25,600 bases of DNA, from IMG/VR virus record IMGVR_UViG_3300007609_000080, positions 1 through 25,600 of that record, one strand, 5' to 3'. Shown piece after piece: positions 10,451-24,719 of this stretch (its first letter is position 1; the number at the start of each line of letters is the position of its first letter). The translations under genes and the position numbers were made by a program. This DNA is from a virus. Below the pieces are notes generated by a model. It saw only the letters and a program-made list of their open reading frames with translations. It made no database searches and was not told the origin of the DNA.

Positions 10451-10484
10451 TTAAAAAGGGGCCTTTCGGCCCCTTCTTCGTTTT
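10451..10484. terminator. Bidirectional hairpin terminator between convergent operons
   Basis: A perfect 8-bp stem AAGGGGCC/GGCCCCTT with a TTTC loop (10456-10475). On the minus strand it is followed by TTTTTAATT, a strong U-tract that would end the nrdB transcript. On the plus strand it is followed by CTTCGTTTT, a weaker tract that would end the virion transcript. It fills the 35 bases between the two stop codons. Confidence 0.92.
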
Positions 10485-11472
10485 AAGCAACTTGTTTCTG
10501 GTCTGGTTCAACTACTGGATCACTCCAGCCCCAGTCACCCACCATCCCTGCGGCATTGTAGTCCGTCACAACACCCTCAAAGAAGTTCTTGTGGCTGTCA
10601 CCACCAATGACCCAATCTAGCCATGGTAGTGGGTTCTCCTTAACCTTCCAGTTACCTTTGAGACCCAACTGGATAAGCCGCCGGTCTGCGATGTAACGAA
10701 TGTATTTCTTAACCTCTTCTGCCGTGAGACCCTCCACGACCCCCATCTCAAACGCCAAGTCAATAACTTTATCCTCAAGTTTAACTGCGTCACGAAACAT
10801 CTGATAGATATCTTTCTTAAACTCGTCAGTAACAATTCGTGGATGCTCTTCACAGAAAGTCCTAAATAGTTTTGTCATTCCTTCACAGTGCATAGACTCA
10901 TCACGCACTGACCATTCTACAATCTCACACATGCCTCGCATCTTACCGAAACGTTGGTAATTCAATAGCATTGCGAACGCACTAAACAGAGCCATGCCTT
11001 CATTCATTGCAGACCGTGCAACAGCCTTAGCAAGTCCTGCGTGGCTTGTTACGTCAATGTCCTGCATGAACTCAACTTTCTCTGCCATCTGCTGGTACTC
11101 TAGGAATGCACTGAACTCTTCTTCAGGTAAACCTAAAGTGTCATTCAGCAAAGCATAGCTACGCTGATGTACGAACTCACGATTCGCAAAGCTAGTCAGC
11201 ATGGCACGAACCTCGTTGTTCTTGAACTTAGGGATGTAGTACTCCAAGTAATTTGTACCGACAGCTACATCGGATTGCGTAAAGAGCCGCAAGATCTGTG
11301 TGATGTGATTCTTTTCTTCTGGGTTTAGTTTCCCATTCTTCCATTGAGCTACGTCTTCTTGTAGCTTGGCTTCCCACTCACCCCAGTGGACCTTCTCATG
11401 TGATACTGCATACTCAACAGCCCATGGGAATTTAAAAGGTTTGTACGTGGTATTCAATTCAAGTAGTGCCAT
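10483..11472 (-). CDS. nrdB: Ribonucleotide reductase class I beta subunit (radical-bearing)
   Basis: NrdB, 329 aa, holds the metal-tyrosyl radical cofactor that starts dNTP synthesis in the alpha subunit. All ligands fit the E. coli spacing: Asp68, Glu99 and His102 with radical Tyr106 (REFVHQRSY), Glu158 (NEGM), Glu192 and His195 (RDESMH). The start is ATG at 11472 (MALLELNTTYK), which has GAGGAG 10 bases upstream; a longer frame to 11490 exists but lies before this site. It overlaps the preceding small gene by 14 bases and is the last gene of the minus-strand operon, directly before the terminator. The intact Tyr argues against the radical-less subtypes. Confidence 0.96.
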   Translation of the reverse strand: MALLELNTTYKPFKFPWAVEYAVSHEKVHWGEWEAKLQEDVAQWKNGKLNPEEKNHITQILRLFTQSDVAVGTNYLEYYIPKFKNNEVRAMLTSFANREFVHQRSYALLNDTLGLPEEEFSAFLEYQQMAEKVEFMQDIDVTSHAGLAKAVARSAMNEGMALFSAFAMLLNYQRFGKMRGMCEIVEWSVRDESMHCEGMTKLFRTFCEEHPRIVTDEFKKDIYQMFRDAVKLEDKVIDLAFEMGVVEGLTAEEVKKYIRYIADRRLIQLGLKGNWKVKENPLPWLDWVIGGDSHKNFFEGVVTDYNAAGMVGDWGWSDPVVEPDQKQVA

Positions 11473-11671
11473 CTTGTGACTGCTCCTCATTTGTGGTGAT
11501 TATTGTCTTCCTTTTTAACTCTGCCCGTAACTGGTTGACCTCCTTGATCAGGGCAGTAATTACCTCCTCTGTCTCTACAAAAAACTGCGGAGGTGGTGTG
11601 TACTCTATACCACTCTGCGCAATTTCTCTATAGAACTTTAGTTTATCTAACACGCTGTCAGGATTTCTCAT
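11459..11671 (-). CDS. Small protein in the nrd operon, unknown
   Basis: A 70-aa protein with a helical, charged first part (DSVLDKLKFYREIAQSGIEY), a Pro-rich middle (TPPPQFF), a short coiled-coil-like helix (VITALIKEVNQLRAELKRK) and a polar Ser/Gln/Thr tail. It overlaps the 48-aa gene before it and nrdB after it by 14 bases each, so it is almost surely translated together with nrdB. The ribosome site is weak, as expected for a coupled gene. No family is recognised. Confidence 0.65.
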   Translation of the reverse strand: MRNPDSVLDKLKFYREIAQSGIEYTPPPQFFVETEEVITALIKEVNQLRAELKRKTIITTNEEQSQDGTT

Positions 11672-12253: not shown

Positions 12254-14011
12254 TTACCCCTGACACGAAAGGCATTCTTCGGCATCCTGAAGAGCCACCC
12301 GCTCCACTGCAAGGCCGACTTTATCTGCCTCGACTCCTGCATTAGTACGCAGGTAGTAAAGGCCCTTGAGTTCTCGCTTATAAGCTCGTAGATGTACGCT
12401 ATTGACGTACGAGGCAGGTGAACCTGACGGAAAGAACAGGTTGACTGACTGACCTTGACAGATGTAGTTCTGCCGATCTGCCGCATGATTAACGACTTCG
12501 CTTTGATCAATCTCAAACGCTGTTTTAAAAATTTCTTTGTCATCGGAACTGAGGAAGTCCAGATGCTGGACTGAGCCTTCATTCGATATGATGCTAGACC
12601 ACGTTTTATCATCGTTCTTTCCGTATCCTTCTAGTACAGACTCTAGGTGCCTATTCTTGATAAGATGAGCACCCGCACGAGTACGATGGGTATAAGCATT
12701 AGACTTAATAGGCTCAATACTAGCACTAGCATTACAGATAATGGAACTGTTAGCATTGGGTGCAATTGCAAGAAGGTGGGCATTACGCATGCCCGTACCT
12801 TCCATGTCAGGAGCCTCACCACGCTCTCGGGCGAGATCCATAGACTCAGCAACAGCTTCATCTTTAATCTCCTTGAAGATACGCATATTCAAGGATTGAG
12901 CACTGAACCAGTCCCATGCCATGCCTTTCTTCTGTAGCAGACCATGGAACCCCATGGCCCCTAGTCCTAACGAGCGTTCCCTTGAAGCACTGTATTTAGC
13001 TTTTCCAAGTTCTTCTGGTGCATGGTCGATAAAGTATTGGAGTACGTTGTCAAGGAATCTAACCAAGTCTGCAACCATTCCGCTTCCTGACCACTCGTCG
13101 TACTTTTCGAGGTTGATGCTGGAGAGGCAACAGACTGCTGTACGTGTTGTATCTGTCGGGAGGTGGATTTCATTGCAGAGGTTAGAGCCGTGAATGCGCA
13201 ATCCAAGTTCTCTTTGGTTTTCTGGTAAGCCTCTGTTGGCTGTGTCGATAAAGTTAAGGTAAGGACTGCCAGTTCTGAAGCGAGCTTCAAGTAAGTCTTC
13301 CCAAAGTCCTCTAGCTGAGACTGTGTCTCTAACAGATCCGTCATGAGGGTCTCTAAGTGTCCATTCTGTTCCATATTCTACCGCCTTCATAAAGTCATCG
13401 GTGATGTTCACGGCATTAAACAAGTTAAAGCACTTGCGATTAATGTCACCACCTGTGGGTACTTTAAAGTTTACGAACTCGACAATGTCAGGATGTGACA
13501 CATCGAGATATGCGGCGTACGATCCTTTACGGGTACGCCCTTGCTTCCATGCAGTCATCCCGCTATCAATGACTTTCATGAATGGGATTGGTCCGGGGGC
13601 TTTCTCTGAAATACCACGAACAGCAGACCAGTGTCCGCCTACGCCACCACCCTTTACAGAAAGCCAAGCCACTTCTTCTGGATGATCAATAAGAGAGTTG
13701 AGATTATCATCCACGTAAGAAAGGAAACAAGATATAGGTAATCCTGTTGCTTTGCTGTCAGGTGCTGGTGCGTTAGACAATACAGGGCTGGCAAACATAA
13801 ACCAGTTAAGACTAGCATAGTCATAGACCCTTTGTGCTAATGCGTAATCACCGTAGCAATAAGCCTCAGCCGCACGTGCATACGCTTCCTGCGGAGACTT
13901 TTCCCACGGAAGCATATAGTAGTCTTCCATGAGCTTGATTGCTTGCTCGGTTAAAAGGGCATCTCTTTCAAGATTGATTTTGATTCTTGTCTGGTTTTGT
14001 GGTTGGCTCAT
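12254..14011 (-). CDS. nrdA: Ribonucleotide reductase class I alpha subunit, short form
   Basis: The catalytic subunit reduces ribonucleotides to deoxyribonucleotides for phage DNA synthesis. Active-site residues are visible: Cys95 (PISCFLS), the SNLCNE motif with Asn277, Cys279 (thiyl radical) and Glu281, Cys294 (TAVCCLS), the radical-path Tyr pair in LYYLRT, and a C-terminal CLSC pair (580/583) for re-reduction by thioredoxin or glutaredoxin. At 585 aa it is much shorter than the usual roughly 750, mainly because the N-terminal ATP-cone is absent; the protein starts almost at the ERDALLTE core motif. The start is ATG 14011; a TTG two codons earlier lies closer to the ribosome site AGGGA. 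It overlaps the gene before by 44 bases. Confidence 0.95.
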   Translation of the reverse strand: MSQPQNQTRIKINLERDALLTEQAIKLMEDYYMLPWEKSPQEAYARAAEAYCYGDYALAQRVYDYASLNWFMFASPVLSNAPAPDSKATGLPISCFLSYVDDNLNSLIDHPEEVAWLSVKGGGVGGHWSAVRGISEKAPGPIPFMKVIDSGMTAWKQGRTRKGSYAAYLDVSHPDIVEFVNFKVPTGGDINRKCFNLFNAVNITDDFMKAVEYGTEWTLRDPHDGSVRDTVSARGLWEDLLEARFRTGSPYLNFIDTANRGLPENQRELGLRIHGSNLCNEIHLPTDTTRTAVCCLSSINLEKYDEWSGSGMVADLVRFLDNVLQYFIDHAPEELGKAKYSASRERSLGLGAMGFHGLLQKKGMAWDWFSAQSLNMRIFKEIKDEAVAESMDLARERGEAPDMEGTGMRNAHLLAIAPNANSSIICNASASIEPIKSNAYTHRTRAGAHLIKNRHLESVLEGYGKNDDKTWSSIISNEGSVQHLDFLSSDDKEIFKTAFEIDQSEVVNHAADRQNYICQGQSVNLFFPSGSPASYVNSVHLRAYKRELKGLYYLRTNAGVEADKVGLAVERVALQDAEECLSCQG

Positions 14012-14198
14012 ATTCAATTTGTTCCCTGTACATATTGACTATCTTATTTAGTATGTGCCGCAATTCTTTAGCGGCGTGTACTTCATGCTCACTTAGGTTG
14101 TCCATGTCGGATTCAATCATCGTAAGCATTTCGTCAGAGAAGCCCAATATTTTTTGTAGTTGGGTTTCTGGGACACGGAGATTAATCTTCTGTCTCAT
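13968..14198 (-). CDS. Small charged protein upstream of nrdA, unknown
   Basis: A 76-aa protein. I use ATG 14198 (MRQKINLRVPE), 5 bases after a GGGGTGA ribosome site; a GTG three codons earlier is also possible. It looks mostly helical, with an acidic middle (MIESDMDNLSEHEVHAAKEL) and a polar Lys/Asn/Gln tail. It overlaps the DUF3310 gene before it by 17 bases and the start of nrdA by 44 bases, so it is part of a coupled chain. No family is recognised. Confidence 0.65.
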   Translation of the reverse strand: MRQKINLRVPETQLQKILGFSDEMLTMIESDMDNLSEHEVHAAKELRHILNKIVNMYREQIEYEPTTKPDKNQNQS

Positions 14199-15378: not shown

Positions 15379-16231
15379 AGACGGTGTAATACCTCCACGG
15401 TTTGTTCTTAGCTTGTGATGCTTCTACACGTCGATACTCTAGTGTAGGCCAGCACGAAAACTTGTAATCACAATACATGCAATTTTTTGCGATGTACCGA
15501 TTACCTGTGGATGTACCACGGTACGTCTCCTCAATGTCCTCATAGCATCGCTCAAAACCTTGGTCCGTAGCAATGTAATCGTAGGTGTCTTGGATCACAC
15601 CTACGTATTCGTCTGAGGCATCGGGGTCTGCTTCAACAAACTTCCACTCTCCAGTGGATTTGTTGATGACGATCCATCCACCAAACGGCAAGCCTGCCGC
15701 TTTTGCGTAGCCAAATCCTTGGGCTAGGTACCCGAATGAATCATCTTCTTGAAGTGCGGCAAAGCTCTTAAACTTATGCTCAAAGGCAAAAGGAGAAGCG
15801 GATTTGATATCCCATATTTTGCCATCTATCACGACATCGTATTCGCCGTTGATTACGCCATCGTTTTCTAACGGTAGCGTGACCTTTCCGTGATACGAAT
15901 CTACAGTTATACCAGCGGCCCGCATCAAAAGCAAGGCTAAAATTTCAATTGAGTCACCTAACAGCATCTTCATGATGAAGTCATACGACAAGCTCTGAGC
16001 CTTTTCTGGGTGATTCTTTTGCCACCACAACTGGCAACGTGGTCTCCCAGCGTTTGACATACGGACAGTAAAGTCCTTGTTGTCACGGTTAAATTGCTTG
16101 AGCAGTGCGTTACGAAAGTCCTCACACGCTTGGTCTATCAGTGCGTCATCGACAGGGGGAGCTTCCCCTGCCGACAACTTAGATAGATACTCACGTACCT
16201 GAACCTCGTATTTCGGAGGCATACTAGACAT
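15344..16231 (-). CDS. Cas4/RecB-like exonuclease with a likely Fe-S cluster
   Basis: A 295-aa nuclease of the PD-(D/E)XK superfamily. Motifs: GDSIE (92-96) for helix one, Asp132 (GEYDVVID), Asp141-Ile-Lys143 (WDIKSAS), and Gln171/Tyr175 (LAQGFGY) as the QxxxY motif. Four cysteines sit as in Cas4 and AddB proteins: Cys66 in the N-terminal part and Cys251, Cys254 and Cys260 (CMYCDYKFSC) at the end. They would hold a 4Fe-4S cluster. Such enzymes degrade DNA ends or single strands; in phages they act in recombination or host-DNA degradation. There is no CRISPR array or other cas gene here. Its start shares one base with the stop of the putative ssDNA-binding gene. Confidence 0.85.
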   Translation of the reverse strand: MSSMPPKYEVQVREYLSKLSAGEAPPVDDALIDQACEDFRNALLKQFNRDNKDFTVRMSNAGRPRCQLWWQKNHPEKAQSLSYDFIMKMLLGDSIEILALLLMRAAGITVDSYHGKVTLPLENDGVINGEYDVVIDGKIWDIKSASPFAFEHKFKSFAALQEDDSFGYLAQGFGYAKAAGLPFGGWIVINKSTGEWKFVEADPDASDEYVGVIQDTYDYIATDQGFERCYEDIEETYRGTSTGNRYIAKNCMYCDYKFSCWPTLEYRRVEASQAKNKPWRYYTVYASPDEEENAG

Positions 16232-17082
16232 TATGCTGTCTCATCAAAGTCAGCTTCTAAAATGTCTTCAACCTCTTCAACGACCTTGGCATCCTGCACA
16301 TCACGTTGCTTACCGTACAGGGCATCGTTGTGCTTCTGTATGACCTGCTTGTTCTCTGCGTTGACCGTATCAAGGATTTTGGTCATGAAGTGGAGGTCGT
16401 CTGTGGTGACCTCTACCTTGTTGCTGAAGTCAGGATCAAACTCAATCACAAAGTATGTGACAGATCCTTTCTTCTGACGCTTTGTAGTCAAAGCACTAGT
16501 GACCTGATTGAACTGTAGCTTTTGCGTACGGCAAGGCTCAATCACCTGCTCAGAGAATGACAGAAAGCTCGCACCCTTCACACGGAACAGGCAAGGCTCA
16601 TCGACAATCTCAACGTGTTCACCTGTCGCAGTCTGTGCATTCATGCTGACAGTAGAGTACAGGTACCGGAAGCACGTAATGTTAGCGTACTTCGCACGAG
16701 TCGTATCGTCTGCTTCACGCAGTTCACGAGACGTAGGCTTACCACAACGGATGCTACCTAACTCATCGACTGGCTCATCACCAACACGGTGAATGATTGT
16801 CTTATTGACCACAGCGTTTTGTTCTGGGTCATAGTCTAGGTATTGCATGTAGTCCGCAAACACACGGATCTTTGCATCCTTTGCGTACACGGGGCCATTC
16901 TCAGTTTGTAGCTGGAAGTATCCCTTCTTTAACTCATTACCGTCATCATCTTCTTCAGAGTAGTTAATCTTCAGAAGAGGCATACGGTTGCCGCTTTGCT
17001 GTTGTACTTGCACCTGAACGCCCATGGCTTCCATGAGTTGGTCTGGTGTCATTCCGTTATATGTTGCAACTTCGTTACTCAT
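16231..17082 (-). CDS. Putative ssDNA-binding/replication accessory protein
   Basis: A 283-aa protein between polymerase and nuclease. It has a Gln/Val-rich early part (VQVQVQQQSGN), a core with many beta-strand-like stretches, and a highly acidic tail (EEVEDILEADFDETA). An acidic C-terminus on a beta-rich core is the usual design of phage and bacterial ssDNA-binding proteins, which use the tail to contact polymerase and helicase. Aromatic residues (Tyr, Phe) are frequent in the core. A classic OB-fold signature is not readable by eye, so this is an inference from place and shape. It overlaps the polymerase end by 8 bases. Confidence 0.6.
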   Translation of the reverse strand: MSNEVATYNGMTPDQLMEAMGVQVQVQQQSGNRMPLLKINYSEEDDDGNELKKGYFQLQTENGPVYAKDAKIRVFADYMQYLDYDPEQNAVVNKTIIHRVGDEPVDELGSIRCGKPTSRELREADDTTRAKYANITCFRYLYSTVSMNAQTATGEHVEIVDEPCLFRVKGASFLSFSEQVIEPCRTQKLQFNQVTSALTTKRQKKGSVTYFVIEFDPDFSNKVEVTTDDLHFMTKILDTVNAENKQVIQKHNDALYGKQRDVQDAKVVEEVEDILEADFDETA

Positions 17083-19183
17083 ATATCACATTTCCATTTA
17101 GCCAATTTGATCCACTCTTTATTTCAATGGCGAGTGGAATTACCATCTCGTGATTATAGCGTACAAGCAATTCTTCTGCAACGTTTTCCATTCCGTCAAT
17201 CAGAATTTCTTTGACGATCTCCATCTCGTCTGGGTGTACGTCTACAACAATACTGTCGTGTACGGTGAGCACAAACAATGATTTGAGGTTTGCTTCCTGC
17301 ATCTTCTTGTGCACACGTATACAAGCAAGCGGTACAATGTCTGCCGTAGCAAACGATTGCACAGGATAGTTTACGATTTGTGTTGCGTACGTAACCCTAC
17401 CTCCTTGCTTGCGCTCTACGTTAGGCCAGTAGAACTGGCGACCTGAAGGCAAGGTAACTGTGCCATGCTTTAAGACATTCTTCTTGAGGCGTTCATGCCA
17501 CTGATGCAGTCCTTCATAAATGTTGAAGTACTCTCTGAAGTACGCCTGCACGTGAGGTGGTTCAGCCCCACCTTGTCCGCCATACAGTGGTGCAAAGGTG
17601 TACGCCTTAGCTTGTTGGCGCATGTCCTTGGTTACTTCGTCAATGTCACACTGGTTGATGATAGCGGCAGTCTGCTTGTGTACATCCTTACCTGACACAA
17701 TGTCTTCGTAGATCTGAGCATCTTTGGACAGCACACCAGCTACACGGAACTCAAGGCCACTGAAGTCAGCTTCCATGATCTCTCCGCCTTCAAACCGAGA
17801 GACAACGCATTTGCGAATCGGAAACGTACCGCCTCGTGGCTGGTTCTGGAAGTTCGGATCAGAAGAAGACAGTCGCCCTGTCGAAGTGATGCACTGGTTG
17901 TAGGTTGTGTGCAGGATACTATTACTACGTGTATTGCGTCGTATACCGCCACAGAAGGACGTGAGGTAGACGTTCAAGGCATTGAGCCTACGCATACCCT
18001 GTAAGAACTCAATCGCCTCGTCATAGCCCTTACGTTGCGCCTGAGCTAGCAAGAAGTTTAATGTGTTCTTGTCAGTGCTAAAGCCATTCGCTGAAACATC
18101 ACGTACTGAATTGGGTACCAGTTTGAATCCTGCGATCTTGTCAAGCTCTTGGTAGACAATACCTGTACCATTACAGTCAGTACACTTCGTACGATTCTTG
18201 TACGGCTTACCGTCTTTCTTGGTTTTCTGGACCGTTCCTAATCCTTCGCACACTAAGCATTGTGAACCCTTGGTACGGCGTATAACCTCACTGTTGTTCT
18301 TAACTGTCCGTGAAAACTCTTTGGGGTCTAAACGTGGTCGAGGCAATGGCTTGCCTCTTTTGTCTAGACCTACGTTAAATGTTTCACGCCACTGTACCTT
18401 GTCTGGAATACGACGAGAGTACACAACCTCAGACAGTTGGGCAGGACTGTTTAGATTGACAGGGGTGTCACCCATAACATTGAACACAAGTTCGTTGAGC
18501 CGTGTCTCTAAGGTGTTACGTTCCTTGGTGAACTCGTCCTCTACTGCATTGAGTGCGTCCATGTCGATGTGAATACCATTACGTTCCATGTCGAGTAGGA
18601 CCAACAGCATCTCATTCATCATGTCACGTGACTTACGTAACCCAGTAAACTCAGGACTACGGTAGTCATGCATCTGAGATTCGTAGACTTCTAGACAGGA
18701 TACAACGTCACCTCGACCGTAGACTTCTACAATCTCTGGGTCCATTTGCTCGTAGCCAATGCCTTTCTTGAAGGTCTCTTCCATTAAGTCAGAACGCTTG
18801 AGTGTAACCTTCCTGCGCTTGGCTGTCTCTTCTAGCGAGAGTGGCATCTTCTGACCACGAGCCAGTACGTATTCACCAATCATGGTGCAGTATACAGGAC
18901 ACTCTATGATAAACCCTGATTCTATCAACCACAGTAAATCGAACTTGATGTTATGGCCTACAAGGATGTCCGCCATATCAATCATACTTTGCAGTTCAAA
19001 CTTCGCTGTAACAGGATCGCACTCTACTTTGGAGTGATTGAAGAAGTAGTACTGGCCTACCTCTTCCCCTAAGAACTGAGCACCGCATGACACCATATAG
19101 TTGTCTGGGTTGAAGGGACTGTTGTCGTATCCCCTCTCTGTCTTCTGTACAGTGGTCTCGATGTCGATACCTAAGATGAACAT
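17075..19183 (-). CDS. polA: Family A DNA polymerase with DnaJ-type zinc insert
   Basis: A 702-aa replicative polymerase. The 3'-5' exonuclease part has Asp7 and Glu9 (ILGIDIETT), GHNIKFD (76-82) and YGRGDVV (155-161). The polymerase part has motif A at 473 (DFSGLEFR), motif B (Arg522, Lys526, Phe530, Tyr534, Gly535) and motif C VHDS (641-644). Between them (about 305-345) lie two CxxCxGxG motifs, CLVCEGLG at 309 and CTDCNGTG at 334, as in the zinc domain of DnaJ. This fusion is the known mark of HMO-2011-type phages. The start is ATG 19183, 6 bases after GAGAGGA; the longer frame to 19246 covers the end of the helicase gene. Phe530 predicts discrimination against dideoxynucleotides. Confidence 0.97.
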   Translation of the reverse strand: MFILGIDIETTVQKTERGYDNSPFNPDNYMVSCGAQFLGEEVGQYYFFNHSKVECDPVTAKFELQSMIDMADILVGHNIKFDLLWLIESGFIIECPVYCTMIGEYVLARGQKMPLSLEETAKRRKVTLKRSDLMEETFKKGIGYEQMDPEIVEVYGRGDVVSCLEVYESQMHDYRSPEFTGLRKSRDMMNEMLLVLLDMERNGIHIDMDALNAVEDEFTKERNTLETRLNELVFNVMGDTPVNLNSPAQLSEVVYSRRIPDKVQWRETFNVGLDKRGKPLPRPRLDPKEFSRTVKNNSEVIRRTKGSQCLVCEGLGTVQKTKKDGKPYKNRTKCTDCNGTGIVYQELDKIAGFKLVPNSVRDVSANGFSTDKNTLNFLLAQAQRKGYDEAIEFLQGMRRLNALNVYLTSFCGGIRRNTRSNSILHTTYNQCITSTGRLSSSDPNFQNQPRGGTFPIRKCVVSRFEGGEIMEADFSGLEFRVAGVLSKDAQIYEDIVSGKDVHKQTAAIINQCDIDEVTKDMRQQAKAYTFAPLYGGQGGAEPPHVQAYFREYFNIYEGLHQWHERLKKNVLKHGTVTLPSGRQFYWPNVERKQGGRVTYATQIVNYPVQSFATADIVPLACIRVHKKMQEANLKSLFVLTVHDSIVVDVHPDEMEIVKEILIDGMENVAEELLVRYNHEMVIPLAIEIKSGSNWLNGNVIYE

Positions 19184-19193
19184 ATCATTCCTC

Positions 19194-20420
19194 TCAATCA
19201 ACGTACCGAGACAGCTTTGGCTGTATCTCGCAAATAACGGTGCCATGCCACCCCGTGATCTTGTTCTTGCCTACAGTTAAGTGGCGGGTGTAATCAGGTT
19301 CTTCGTCTACACCTGAACTGTCGTGCTTACCAATACCGATAATAATATCTGCCTCAGCAAACTTGCCGGTCTTACTGCCTTCCATTTCAGATGGGTTTAG
19401 TTTCGTTTTGCCTTCTGCGTCCGCTGATGCTTGGCTAATGGCAATAAGTGCGAGATCGTGTCGCTTTGCGATTTCTCTAGCTTGCGTATAGATCTCTCGT
19501 AGTTTCTCGTCCGTACGAGAGAAATTGCCAGCCACTTGGACTTTATCCAATTGATCCACGACCAGAACATCAGGTTTGTGATTCTCGCAGTAAGCGTCGA
19601 TCTGTTCAATTGAGGTTCCTTGGGCATCATACATCTCCACATGATCTTTAATGACCTTCCACTCTTGTGCTACAAAGTGTGGATCTTCAAATATTTCTTC
19701 ACGTGTCAGTCCGGTAAAGGATGACATCGCACGAATCATCGTACGTGCCGCAGGTTCTTCATTGACAAACGTGTGTACCTTAGCTCCCTGCTCTGCAAAT
19801 CCGTCAGGGCCATAACAAAAGGATACGTGACTTGCTGTCTTGCCTGTCTCAGGCCGAGCAAAGATGATACAGAGTTCACCACCTGCAACACCCGGTAACT
19901 TTTCTCGCAATGCACGAATGTTAAAGTTCCAGCGGTTGTCATTAGATGTCTGCCTAAGTAACTCAAAGACATCCTTACTACACGCTTGTATATCCATGGC
20001 AGGCATGAAGTCGTCTTTGGTTTTCTCTAGGATACGCTTGATAGGGGTAAGATCACTTATTGCCCCGTCTTCGATCTCTAAACCAATGTTGGCAATATCT
20101 CTACCAATCTCTTGTCGCCACGCATGAGCAAGCACCTCGTCCGCAATCTCTAAGGACAGGGCTGGCTTGTCTGCTAGTTCACGCAACAGAATGCGTACGT
20201 TTTCCATCTTGGCACGTGACTCTGTCGGATTGCGTACTTCATACAATGCAGAGATATCTTGTACGGTTACATCATTGTCTGGGGACTTCTCGTGTGCCTC
20301 AATGATGCATTTGTATATGGGCAGGTAGTCAGAATCCTCAAACATGGATTTTCTGACCTTGTGCTTGTTTGCCTCGTAAAAATCCTTACGAAGCAATAGT
20401 TGAATAAGTTCAGGTTTCAT
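19194..20420 (-). CDS. Replicative DNA helicase, DnaB-like
   Basis: A 408-aa RecA-fold helicase that unwinds DNA at the fork. The N-terminal part (1-150) is helical and DnaB-N-like. The motor part has Walker A ARPETGKT (188-195), the DnaB-style form, Walker B DVLVVDQ (284-290), and a later AISQAS motif (327-332) followed by GSKTGKFAEAD (348-358), the region of the sensor and DNA-binding loops. In T7 the primase and helicase are one protein; here the primase is a separate gene about 3 kb upstream. GGAGG lies about 12 bases before the start. Ten bases separate its stop from the polymerase start. Confidence 0.94.
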   Translation of the reverse strand: MKPELIQLLLRKDFYEANKHKVRKSMFEDSDYLPIYKCIIEAHEKSPDNDVTVQDISALYEVRNPTESRAKMENVRILLRELADKPALSLEIADEVLAHAWRQEIGRDIANIGLEIEDGAISDLTPIKRILEKTKDDFMPAMDIQACSKDVFELLRQTSNDNRWNFNIRALREKLPGVAGGELCIIFARPETGKTASHVSFCYGPDGFAEQGAKVHTFVNEEPAARTMIRAMSSFTGLTREEIFEDPHFVAQEWKVIKDHVEMYDAQGTSIEQIDAYCENHKPDVLVVDQLDKVQVAGNFSRTDEKLREIYTQAREIAKRHDLALIAISQASADAEGKTKLNPSEMEGSKTGKFAEADIIIGIGKHDSSGVDEEPDYTRHLTVGKNKITGWHGTVICEIQPKLSRYVD

Positions 20421-23496: not shown

Positions 23497-24291
23497 TCAC
23501 TTAGTGATTAATGACTTGACGCATTCTGGAGTAAAATACTTCAAGTCATCAGTTAAGAATAGTATCTCAGTTGATACGTGTGCGTCAAGCATTTTTTTCA
23601 TTTGAATTGATTTTTTTGACGCATCAGGGTCTAGAGCAACAATCACCTTACTGAATGCACGTAACTGGTACACATGCCCTGCACTTAAGGTTGTACCCAA
23701 TAAGGCAACCCCTGTGTATCCTGCGGCATACACTGTACAAGCACTCGCACAATCTTCTACTACAACGGCTGTGCCTTGCTTTGGGCCACAGATAAACATG
23801 AGATCTTTCCTTCTGTCGTAACGTTTCCACTTGGGTACGACACCTTTACGCAATGCTCTACCTACAGCACCAATGACATTCTTGTTGTCATCTGTGATTA
23901 AGAATACACATCTGTTTTCTTTGATGTCGTACAAGACATAAGCGTACGTATCATCAATGGCCGGTTGAACATGCATGTCTTCAATGTAGGACACACAGGT
24001 ATGATTGGTGTCTACTAGGGTCAGTGTATCAGGAATTACAAAGGAAGGGGGCACATCTTCGTTTTGCTTACGACACGAAGGGGATGCTAGACTCTCACGA
24101 ATAGAGGCAAGGCTACGGCGTACCCCGGCATTACCTCGTGCACGACACGATGCCTTATAGCAGTTATACAATACTTGACCACCTTGACGTGTGACTGTAA
24201 ATGTCTTGTACCCTCCACACACAGGACAGGATACACGTTTGGTTTCACTGTCCCGGATGTCGAGTCCTGAAATGAATTCTTTTATCTCCAT
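23497..24291 (-). CDS. DNA primase (T7-type: zinc ribbon plus TOPRIM)
   Basis: A 264-aa stand-alone primase. It has an N-terminal zinc ribbon (Cys22, Cys25, Cys44, Cys49: CPVCGG and NCYKASC), a linker, and a TOPRIM core with Glu179 (VVVEDCASA) and Asp221/Asp223 (VIVALDPDA). It makes RNA primers for lagging-strand synthesis together with the separate helicase gene at 19194. The start is ATG 24291 (MEIKEFISGLD); the much longer frame to 24459 begins with 56 residues unlike a primase that would cover the promoter region, so I reject it. A weak GAAGAGAG lies about 10 bases upstream. It faces the early plus-strand genes across an AT-rich spacer and ends before a strong terminator. Confidence 0.92.
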   Translation of the reverse strand: MEIKEFISGLDIRDSETKRVSCPVCGGYKTFTVTRQGGQVLYNCYKASCRARGNAGVRRSLASIRESLASPSCRKQNEDVPPSFVIPDTLTLVDTNHTCVSYIEDMHVQPAIDDTYAYVLYDIKENRCVFLITDDNKNVIGAVGRALRKGVVPKWKRYDRRKDLMFICGPKQGTAVVVEDCASACTVYAAGYTGVALLGTTLSAGHVYQLRAFSKVIVALDPDASKKSIQMKKMLDAHVSTEILFLTDDLKYFTPECVKSLITK

Positions 24292-24449
24292 GGTGTTGAC
24301 ACGCTCTCTTCTTTCGTTTAACGTCCTCAGTACAATACCCCCTGTTAAGGGAAAACACAAACATAAATAATATATACTAAGGTCTAATATATAATCTTGT
24401 ACGCAAAGACTATGATCTACAAACGAACTCAAGCAAGGAGATAACACAA
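24292..24449. promoter_or_regulatory. Divergent AT-rich control region
   Basis: A 158-base spacer between the primase (minus) and the first early gene (plus), the largest intergenic region. The core (about 24361-24395) is nearly pure AT and includes a perfect TATAAT at 24390-24395 (plus strand), but no clear TTGACA at 17 bases. Near-palindromic ATAATATATA and TAATATATAAT tracts could serve either direction. A ribosome site AAGGAG (24436-24441) precedes the plus gene. Main early promoters are expected here; a replication origin is also possible. Confidence 0.55.
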
Positions 24450-24719
24450 ATGCAATCAACTAAGGACATGATGATTACACTCAGAGAAACATTTGATGTA
24501 GTCTACAAATACAATCATTCTATGAATGAACATGAATTGCGTACATCAATTAATGCTTTACGCAATCTGTACTATATGTTGTACGAAGACTATACATTTG
24601 CTGAAGCCATTGACAACATGGCTAAAGTATACGATGAACACAAAGAAGCAGAAGAAGTAGCTCGTACCGAATCTGCATTATGGTTTGAACAAGGAGAGAA
24701 GTGCTATGAAATTGATTGA
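24450..24719 (+). CDS. First early gene, unknown acidic protein
   Basis: An 89-aa, mainly helical, acidic protein: QSTKDMMITLRETFDVVYKY, then NALRNLYYMLYEDYTFAEAI and a Glu-rich end (EHKEAEEVARTE). The strong AAGGAG site 8 bases before ATG 24450 and the place right after the divergent promoter region mark it as an early gene. It overlaps the next gene by 14 bases. No family is recognised; small acidic early proteins often bind and block host proteins. Confidence 0.8.
   Translation: MQSTKDMMITLRETFDVVYKYNHSMNEHELRTSINALRNLYYMLYEDYTFAEAIDNMAKVYDEHKEAEEVARTESALWFEQGEKCYEID

Follow-up and report, generated by a model that had tools for sequence, protein, structure and literature searches.

Why does a phage replicative DNA polymerase carry half of a DnaJ zinc domain, and what might that module do there? 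The question is raised by a marine phage's family A polymerase gene in IMG/VR virus record IMGVR_UViG_3300007609_000080, of which we analyzed positions 1 to 25,600 (hereafter, the window). The polymerases of HMO-2011-type phages have been described as carrying part of a DnaJ domain, marked by two CXXCXGXG motifs (PMC6918029, PMC9038755, PMC8528129), and two of these studies use the module as a criterion for the group (PMC9038755, PMC8528129). The link to HMO-2011-type phages drawn in the original prediction, which was made from the sequence of the window, is thus correct and published. In the GenBank record of HMO-2011 itself, PF00684 is already named on the polymerase gene. The feature is not new: it is a published hallmark, and the polymerase studied here adds a member to a known group. 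In the literature we searched, we came across no experiments on the module, and the only comment offered in PMC9038755 is an analogy, namely that DnaJ is needed for the replication of phage lambda.

The polymerase and its genomic setting

Read from its most upstream ATG, the polymerase ORF encodes 723 aa (17075–19246, minus strand). A start at nt 19183, which gives 702 aa, is likely the correct one, since the nearest relatives begin at the same Met and match this shorter form from its first residue. Exonuclease and family A polymerase domains were identified both by Pfam (DNA_pol_A_exo1, PF01612, 7e-5; DNA_pol_A, PF00476, 6e-65) and by fold search, and PHROGs also supports the assignment as a family A DNA polymerase. 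The closest folds to the AlphaFold2 model of the 702-aa protein (pLDDT 90.1, pTM 0.83) are Bst and Klenow DNA polymerase I (Z 36; against 3ht3, Z 36 and 3.3 Å over 548 residues), with which it has exonuclease, palm, fingers and thumb in common. The catalytic motifs of both the exonuclease and the polymerase are all intact (Table 1), and the exonuclease residues listed there occupy invariant or nearly invariant alignment columns.

In a tblastn search against phage records, the 12 top records were HMO-2011-type (11 phages), and relatives of this type were 38–52% identical to the polymerase over 96–99% of the protein. What defines the HMO-2011-type polymerase was found here as well: family A and exonuclease domains and, between the two, the partial DnaJ domain with its pair of CXXCXGXG motifs. 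The polymerases of HMO-2011, CRP-1/2/3/235 and HTVC033P have the same domain order, the same two motifs and the same spacing; they differ from ours in sequence only, and in HMO-2011 the insert is missing its GLNxxGKPLxRPR segment. The neighboring genes also agree, with a helicase before the polymerase and a protein with an acidic tail after it.

In the window, a replication block on the minus strand comprises a primase-like (Toprim) gene, small genes, a DnaB-like helicase and the family A polymerase, followed by a 283-aa protein, a Cas4-type exonuclease, endonuclease I and ribonucleotide reductase genes. The core genes of the group are those for helicase, primase, DNA polymerase (DNAP), portal, capsid and terminase; the three replication genes were looked for in this 25.6-kb fragment, and a primase-like protein, a DnaB-like helicase and the DNAP are present. 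The large and small subunits of ribonucleotide reductase (10483–11490 and 12254–14017, minus strand; phrog_84 and phrog_86) are class I-like, whereas the enzyme of HMO-2011 is annotated as adenosylcobalamin-dependent. Besides its Toprim domain, the primase-like protein (23497–24459, minus strand) has an N-terminal CPVCGG..C....C zinc-finger-like stretch; its assigned start, a TTG far upstream, is doubtful.

Table 1 Features of the polymerase gene and of its downstream neighbor, with residues of the 702-aa form and nucleotide positions in the window.
Feature	Residues	Position (nt)	Strand	Basis
Polymerase of family A (702 aa), with 3'-5' exonuclease, insert-bearing thumb and palm/fingers	1–702	17075–19183	minus	
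3'-5' exonuclease domain, with D7/E9, N78/D82, Y155/D159	~1–180	18644–19183	minus	PF01612
Thumb-tip insert (~110 residues), between H1 (247–255) and H2 (372–385)	~256–367	18083–18418	minus	
Zinc module proper (predicted): strand 302–308, two CxxC knuckles, strand 342–350	302–350	18134–18280	minus	AF2, PF00684, fold matches
CLVCEGLG (= DnaJ motif 2)	309–316	18236–18259	minus	
Basic hairpin TVQKTKKDGKPYKNRTK	317–333	18185–18235	minus	
CTDCNGTG (= DnaJ motif 3)	334–341	18161–18184	minus	
Thumb helices H2 and I	372–417	17933–18070	minus	AF2 secondary structure; Bst Pol I alignment from 362
Palm and fingers	421–702	17078–17923	minus	
Palm/fingers motifs: A DFSGLEFR, B RQQAKAYTFAPLY, C VHDS	473 (A), 522 (B), 641 (C)			
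283-aa protein with acidic C-terminal tail, candidate SSB, directly downstream of the polymerase		16231–17082	minus	

Two CXXCXGXG motifs and their likeness to DnaJ zinc center II

Both motifs lie at the residues first given for them, 309 and 334 of 702 (nt 18161–18259, inside 18100–18300), and no other CxxCxGxG motif occurs in the window's open frames of at least 60 aa. When the 702 residues of the polymerase (14 Cys and 50 Gly among them) were shuffled, two motifs arose in 0 of 100,000 shuffles and at least one motif in 141 of 100,000. The Pfam DnaJ_CXXCXGXG profile (PF00684) matched the polymerase over profile positions 13–55 of 65 at 1.4e-4 and 22.4 bits, under the curated cut-off of 32.7 bits, and it matched 46 of 46 inserts.

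That the module amounts to half a DnaJ zinc domain, as first described, is correct, and the matching half can be specified: the profile aligns with 1exk residues 26–64 (E 0.039, a weak score), which places the two phage motifs opposite motifs 2 and 3 of E. coli DnaJ, the pair that makes up zinc center II. What the module shares with this center of DnaJ and type I Hsp40 proteins is a pair of CXXCXGXG motifs flanking a β-hairpin. Motifs 1 and 4 (zinc center I), the J-domain and the client-binding domains belong to DnaJ only and are absent from the phage module. In place of the four-motif, two-center arrangement of DnaJ we found two motifs, and a PF00684 match that is partial and below cut-off.

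Within the module, confidence in the polymerase model is high (pLDDT 86–93), and the module folded alone reached a pLDDT of 88. Its best fold match was DnaJA2 (Z 4.6, 3.4 Å over 48 residues), followed in rank by UvrA, S. pneumoniae DnaJ, anti-TRAP, BSD2 and lambda Q. These matches to the isolated module are weak (Foldseek E at least 0.15, Z at most 4.6); nearly all of the ranked entries are CXXCXGXG zinc modules, with the unplaced 8xku as the exception. Nothing significant came from a search of the PDB with the module alone. Foldseek, run on the isolated insert against PDB and BFVD, had no match that reached E ≤ 0.001; we do not read this as evidence of a new fold. As far as fold alignment can show, the structure prediction that had been proposed as a check supports the zinc-module idea: the zinc modules of DnaJ, BSD2, anti-TRAP, UvrA and lambda Q all align with the module part of the AlphaFold model of the insert. 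With lambda Q, UvrA, anti-TRAP and BSD2 a CXXCXGXG-type module is shared by profile and by fold, at weak scores; the proteins that carry it are unrelated, and none is a polymerase.

A J-domain (PF00226) was absent from the polymerase and from the 25.6-kb record, while the same search found one in 12 of 14 control genomes. Because nearly all ranked matches are CXXCXGXG zinc modules and the J-domain is absent, we call the module DnaJ-center-II-like and not a DnaJ. The hairpin is probably zinc-binding.

Predicted placement of the insert in the thumb

The original prediction had placed the module between the exonuclease and polymerase domains. We aligned a profile of 41 polymerases with Klenow and Bst Pol I. 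The alignment with Klenow ends at profile position 257, chain residue 270 (Klenow ...TILFEKQ, the end of H1), and the profile alignment restarts at 421 (Klenow) or 362 (Bst Pol I). In the AlphaFold2 model, helices 208–237 and 247–255 are followed by two short helices, by strands 302–308 and 342–350 around the knuckles, and by helices 372–385 and 388–417. Since the profile alignment breaks at this point and the predicted secondary structure agrees, we place the insert in the loop that joins thumb helices H1 and H2. With the alignment and the model in hand, the reading as an inter-domain linker was dropped in favor of a thumb insert: the module is predicted to lie inside the polymerase domain. 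In Klenow and Bst Pol I the H1–H2 loop has about 14 residues, against an insert of about 110 here.

More distant relatives, the polymerases of VpV262 and Vibrio phage 1.209, have a short loop without cysteines at this place. The family A polymerases of ICP2 (L082) and MedPE-SWcel-C56 (L084) have other, cysteine-free sequence at the H1–H2 site, which suggests that the loop is a recurrent insertion site.

The T7 gene 5 polymerase, also a phage family A enzyme, likewise has an extra domain on its thumb, but it lacks a zinc motif. Its thioredoxin-binding domain is located before H1 (between H and H1) and so represents a different insertion site from that of the phage insert, which comes after H1, between H1 and H2. 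In a MAFFT alignment, the insert segment RGKPLPRPRLD (residues ~272–290, 18312–18368, minus strand) resembles TGKPLPKYPRIK of the T7 thioredoxin-binding domain. We rejected this domain as a homolog of the insert and treat the likeness as chance or convergence, because the two lie on different sides of H1 and the segment is absent from HMO-2011. The Pol I of Thermus phage G20c (7r0k, Z 34.4) was also set aside as a precedent: its extra motif is near the end of the exonuclease domain, outside the thumb (PMC9629493).

Conservation of the cysteines and of a basic hairpin

Polymerase loci of relatives were fetched from viral contigs and MAG contigs. The first search used a pattern inside the module and was hence biased towards carriers; the second, which used polymerase motifs only and also ranks the closest relatives first, again returned nothing but module carriers. 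All four cysteines are kept in 131 of 131 polymerase ORFs of the fetched loci, which answers the concern, voiced with the original prediction, that homologs might lack them. The spacing from the first Cys of one pair to the first Cys of the other is 25 residues in 130 of the 131 and 37 in the remaining one (L110), whose hairpin is longer by 12 residues and which retains the four cysteines. One DnaJ glycine is lost in 9 of 131 (L052, L080, L123, L133, L145, L153, L163, L164 and L165; L080 and L123 are the same contig, and some loci are re-fetched copies). With four cysteines kept in all and a glycine lost in nine, the putative metal site is the most strictly conserved element.

Statistics on the hairpin were computed from 101 distinct module sequences. 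Lys or Arg is found at positions +11, +13, +20 and +24 from the first Cys in 100, 99, 98 and 97% of them, respectively; all 101 carry Gly at +16 and an aromatic residue at +19. The net charge of the 17-residue hairpin averages +4.7 (range +2 to +7), so that the phage hairpin is strongly basic, unlike that of DnaJ (QMRQGFFAVQQT). This pattern of conservation indicates that selection holds the metal ligands together with the charged hairpin.

With the insert as query against 50,697 phage records, we recovered HMO-2011-type polymerases only; beyond these, the next matches had E values of at least 0.4, and none were polymerases. Identical HMO-2011-type polymerase contigs (L166, L167, L171 and L172) sit in unrelated MAGs (Flavobacteriales, Neomarinimicrobiota), a sign that viral contigs have been misbinned in genome collections.

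A thumb-tip element that may grip DNA

Three functions had been left open for the module: contact with host DnaK, a grip on DNA, and a thumb or processivity element. The thumb position and the conserved basic hairpin lead us to favor DNA grip and processivity; DnaK contact is little supported, because the J-domain is absent from polymerase and record alike. We put at roughly 0.6 the probability that the module is a zinc-stabilized thumb-tip element that grips DNA for processivity. Four-cysteine conservation, thumb position, a basic hairpin and, in the predicted model, a DnaJ-like module fold are what the computation gives, and from them we infer metal binding, DNA contact and an effect on processivity.

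In the mechanism that we propose, a one-zinc, DnaJ-center-II-like β-hairpin would sit at the tip of the polymerase thumb, where the two CxxC knuckles would hold one metal ion and so fix the basic hairpin. The hairpin would extend the H1–H2 loop, which in family A polymerases lies along the primer–template duplex. The module would most likely lengthen the thumb and supply lysines that touch the DNA backbone behind the active site, and the phage polymerase could thereby stay on its template without a separate clamp.

This reading draws on what is known of other thumbs. In T7 polymerase, the thumb peptides H1/6c and 6d/H2 crosslink to the template (PMC9198812). As cited in PMC10061031, truncation of the E. 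coli Pol I thumb reduces processivity and fidelity (Minnick 1996), and E. coli Pol I gains processivity when the thumb-borne thioredoxin-binding domain of T7 is grafted onto it (Bedford 1997). Two fold neighbors of the module, UvrA and lambda Q, are nucleic-acid proteins, and the structure of lambda Q includes its DNA site. Counting against a grip on DNA, the CXXCXGXG modules of DnaJ, BSD2 and anti-TRAP have proteins rather than DNA as ligands, the fold matches of the isolated module are weak, and VpV262 and Vibrio phage 1.209 do without the module.

Alternative explanations

In T7 polymerase, acidic tails of T7 proteins bind to basic loops of the thumb domain. On this model, and as the main rival to a grip on DNA, the basic hairpin could be a docking site for another replisome protein, most plausibly for the acidic C-terminal tail of the candidate SSB encoded downstream (Table 1). 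The downstream gene is conserved in the group and lies within 500 nt of the polymerase in 116 of the 134 loci that have both. Net charge over the last 24 residues is −4 or lower in 90% of 117 distinct relatives of the downstream protein (mean −6.3), compared with 16% of 647 other ORFs of at least 250 aa in the same loci, and some of the downstream proteins end in DIPF(N), EIPF or EVPF (L052, L106, L166), like the tips of bacterial SSBs. A contact between thumb tip and SSB has been predicted for the family A polymerase of C. perfringens (PMC10061031). However, we found no homology of the downstream protein to any SSB, Pfam or PDB entry, nor to PHROGs of known function. An acidic tail is moreover insufficient by itself for a contact, and the helicase or primase is a possible alternative partner; the helicase of the window lacks an acidic tail. 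On balance we consider docking unlikely to be the role of the hairpin, and we infer no more for the 283-aa protein than that it is a possible partner of the polymerase. Slightly more doubtful is the specific version in which the zinc hairpin would receive the acidic tail of the adjacent protein, itself a so far unrecognized HMO-2011-type SSB, in a two-part processivity system. If true, such a system would be unlike that of T7 polymerase and thioredoxin. A grip on DNA and the docking of a tail are not mutually exclusive.

The module might instead be a purely structural brace, in which zinc keeps the enlarged thumb folded and there is no direct DNA or protein partner. Cysteines that are kept more strictly than glycines or surface residues fit a brace, as does the good packing of the 702-aa model around the module, but the position-specific lysines and the invariant aromatic of the exposed hairpin exceed what a brace needs, and we find this explanation improbable.

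A functional piece of DnaJ could, by analogy with lambda replication, recruit host DnaK or keep the polymerase in a chaperone complex. The lambda analogy was raised in PMC9038755, and the part of DnaJ matched here, zinc center II, is reported to be important for DnaK interaction (Linke 2003, as cited in PMC4428491). Yet DnaJ without most of its zinc domain remains a good DnaK co-chaperone (PMC4428491), the conserved features of the phage hairpin are basic where those of DnaJ are not, and the J-domain that 12 of 14 control genomes yielded is missing from polymerase and record. On this last ground we rejected the DnaK reading, to which we give hardly any credence; a chaperone role is unlikely.

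That the four cysteines hold an iron–sulfur cluster or act as a redox switch, in place of structural zinc, seems very improbable. Two CxxC pairs are able to coordinate zinc as well as a cluster, and thiol-reductase activity is known for the DnaJ zinc domain (PMC4428491), but across the profile and fold matches both the CxxCxGxG pattern and the module fold agree with zinc proteins.

Implications for HMO-2011-type phages

HMO-2011-type phages are among the dominant phages of the ocean, and the module has served for years to identify their polymerase without a proposed mechanism. What is new here is its exact location, the analysis of its conservation and a concrete, testable mechanism that replaces the chaperone analogy. 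Four cysteines, four Lys/Arg positions and a candidate partner gene can be named for a test. With its placement at the thumb tip, the "DnaJ domain in a polymerase" shifts from a chaperone puzzle to a testable question of processivity.
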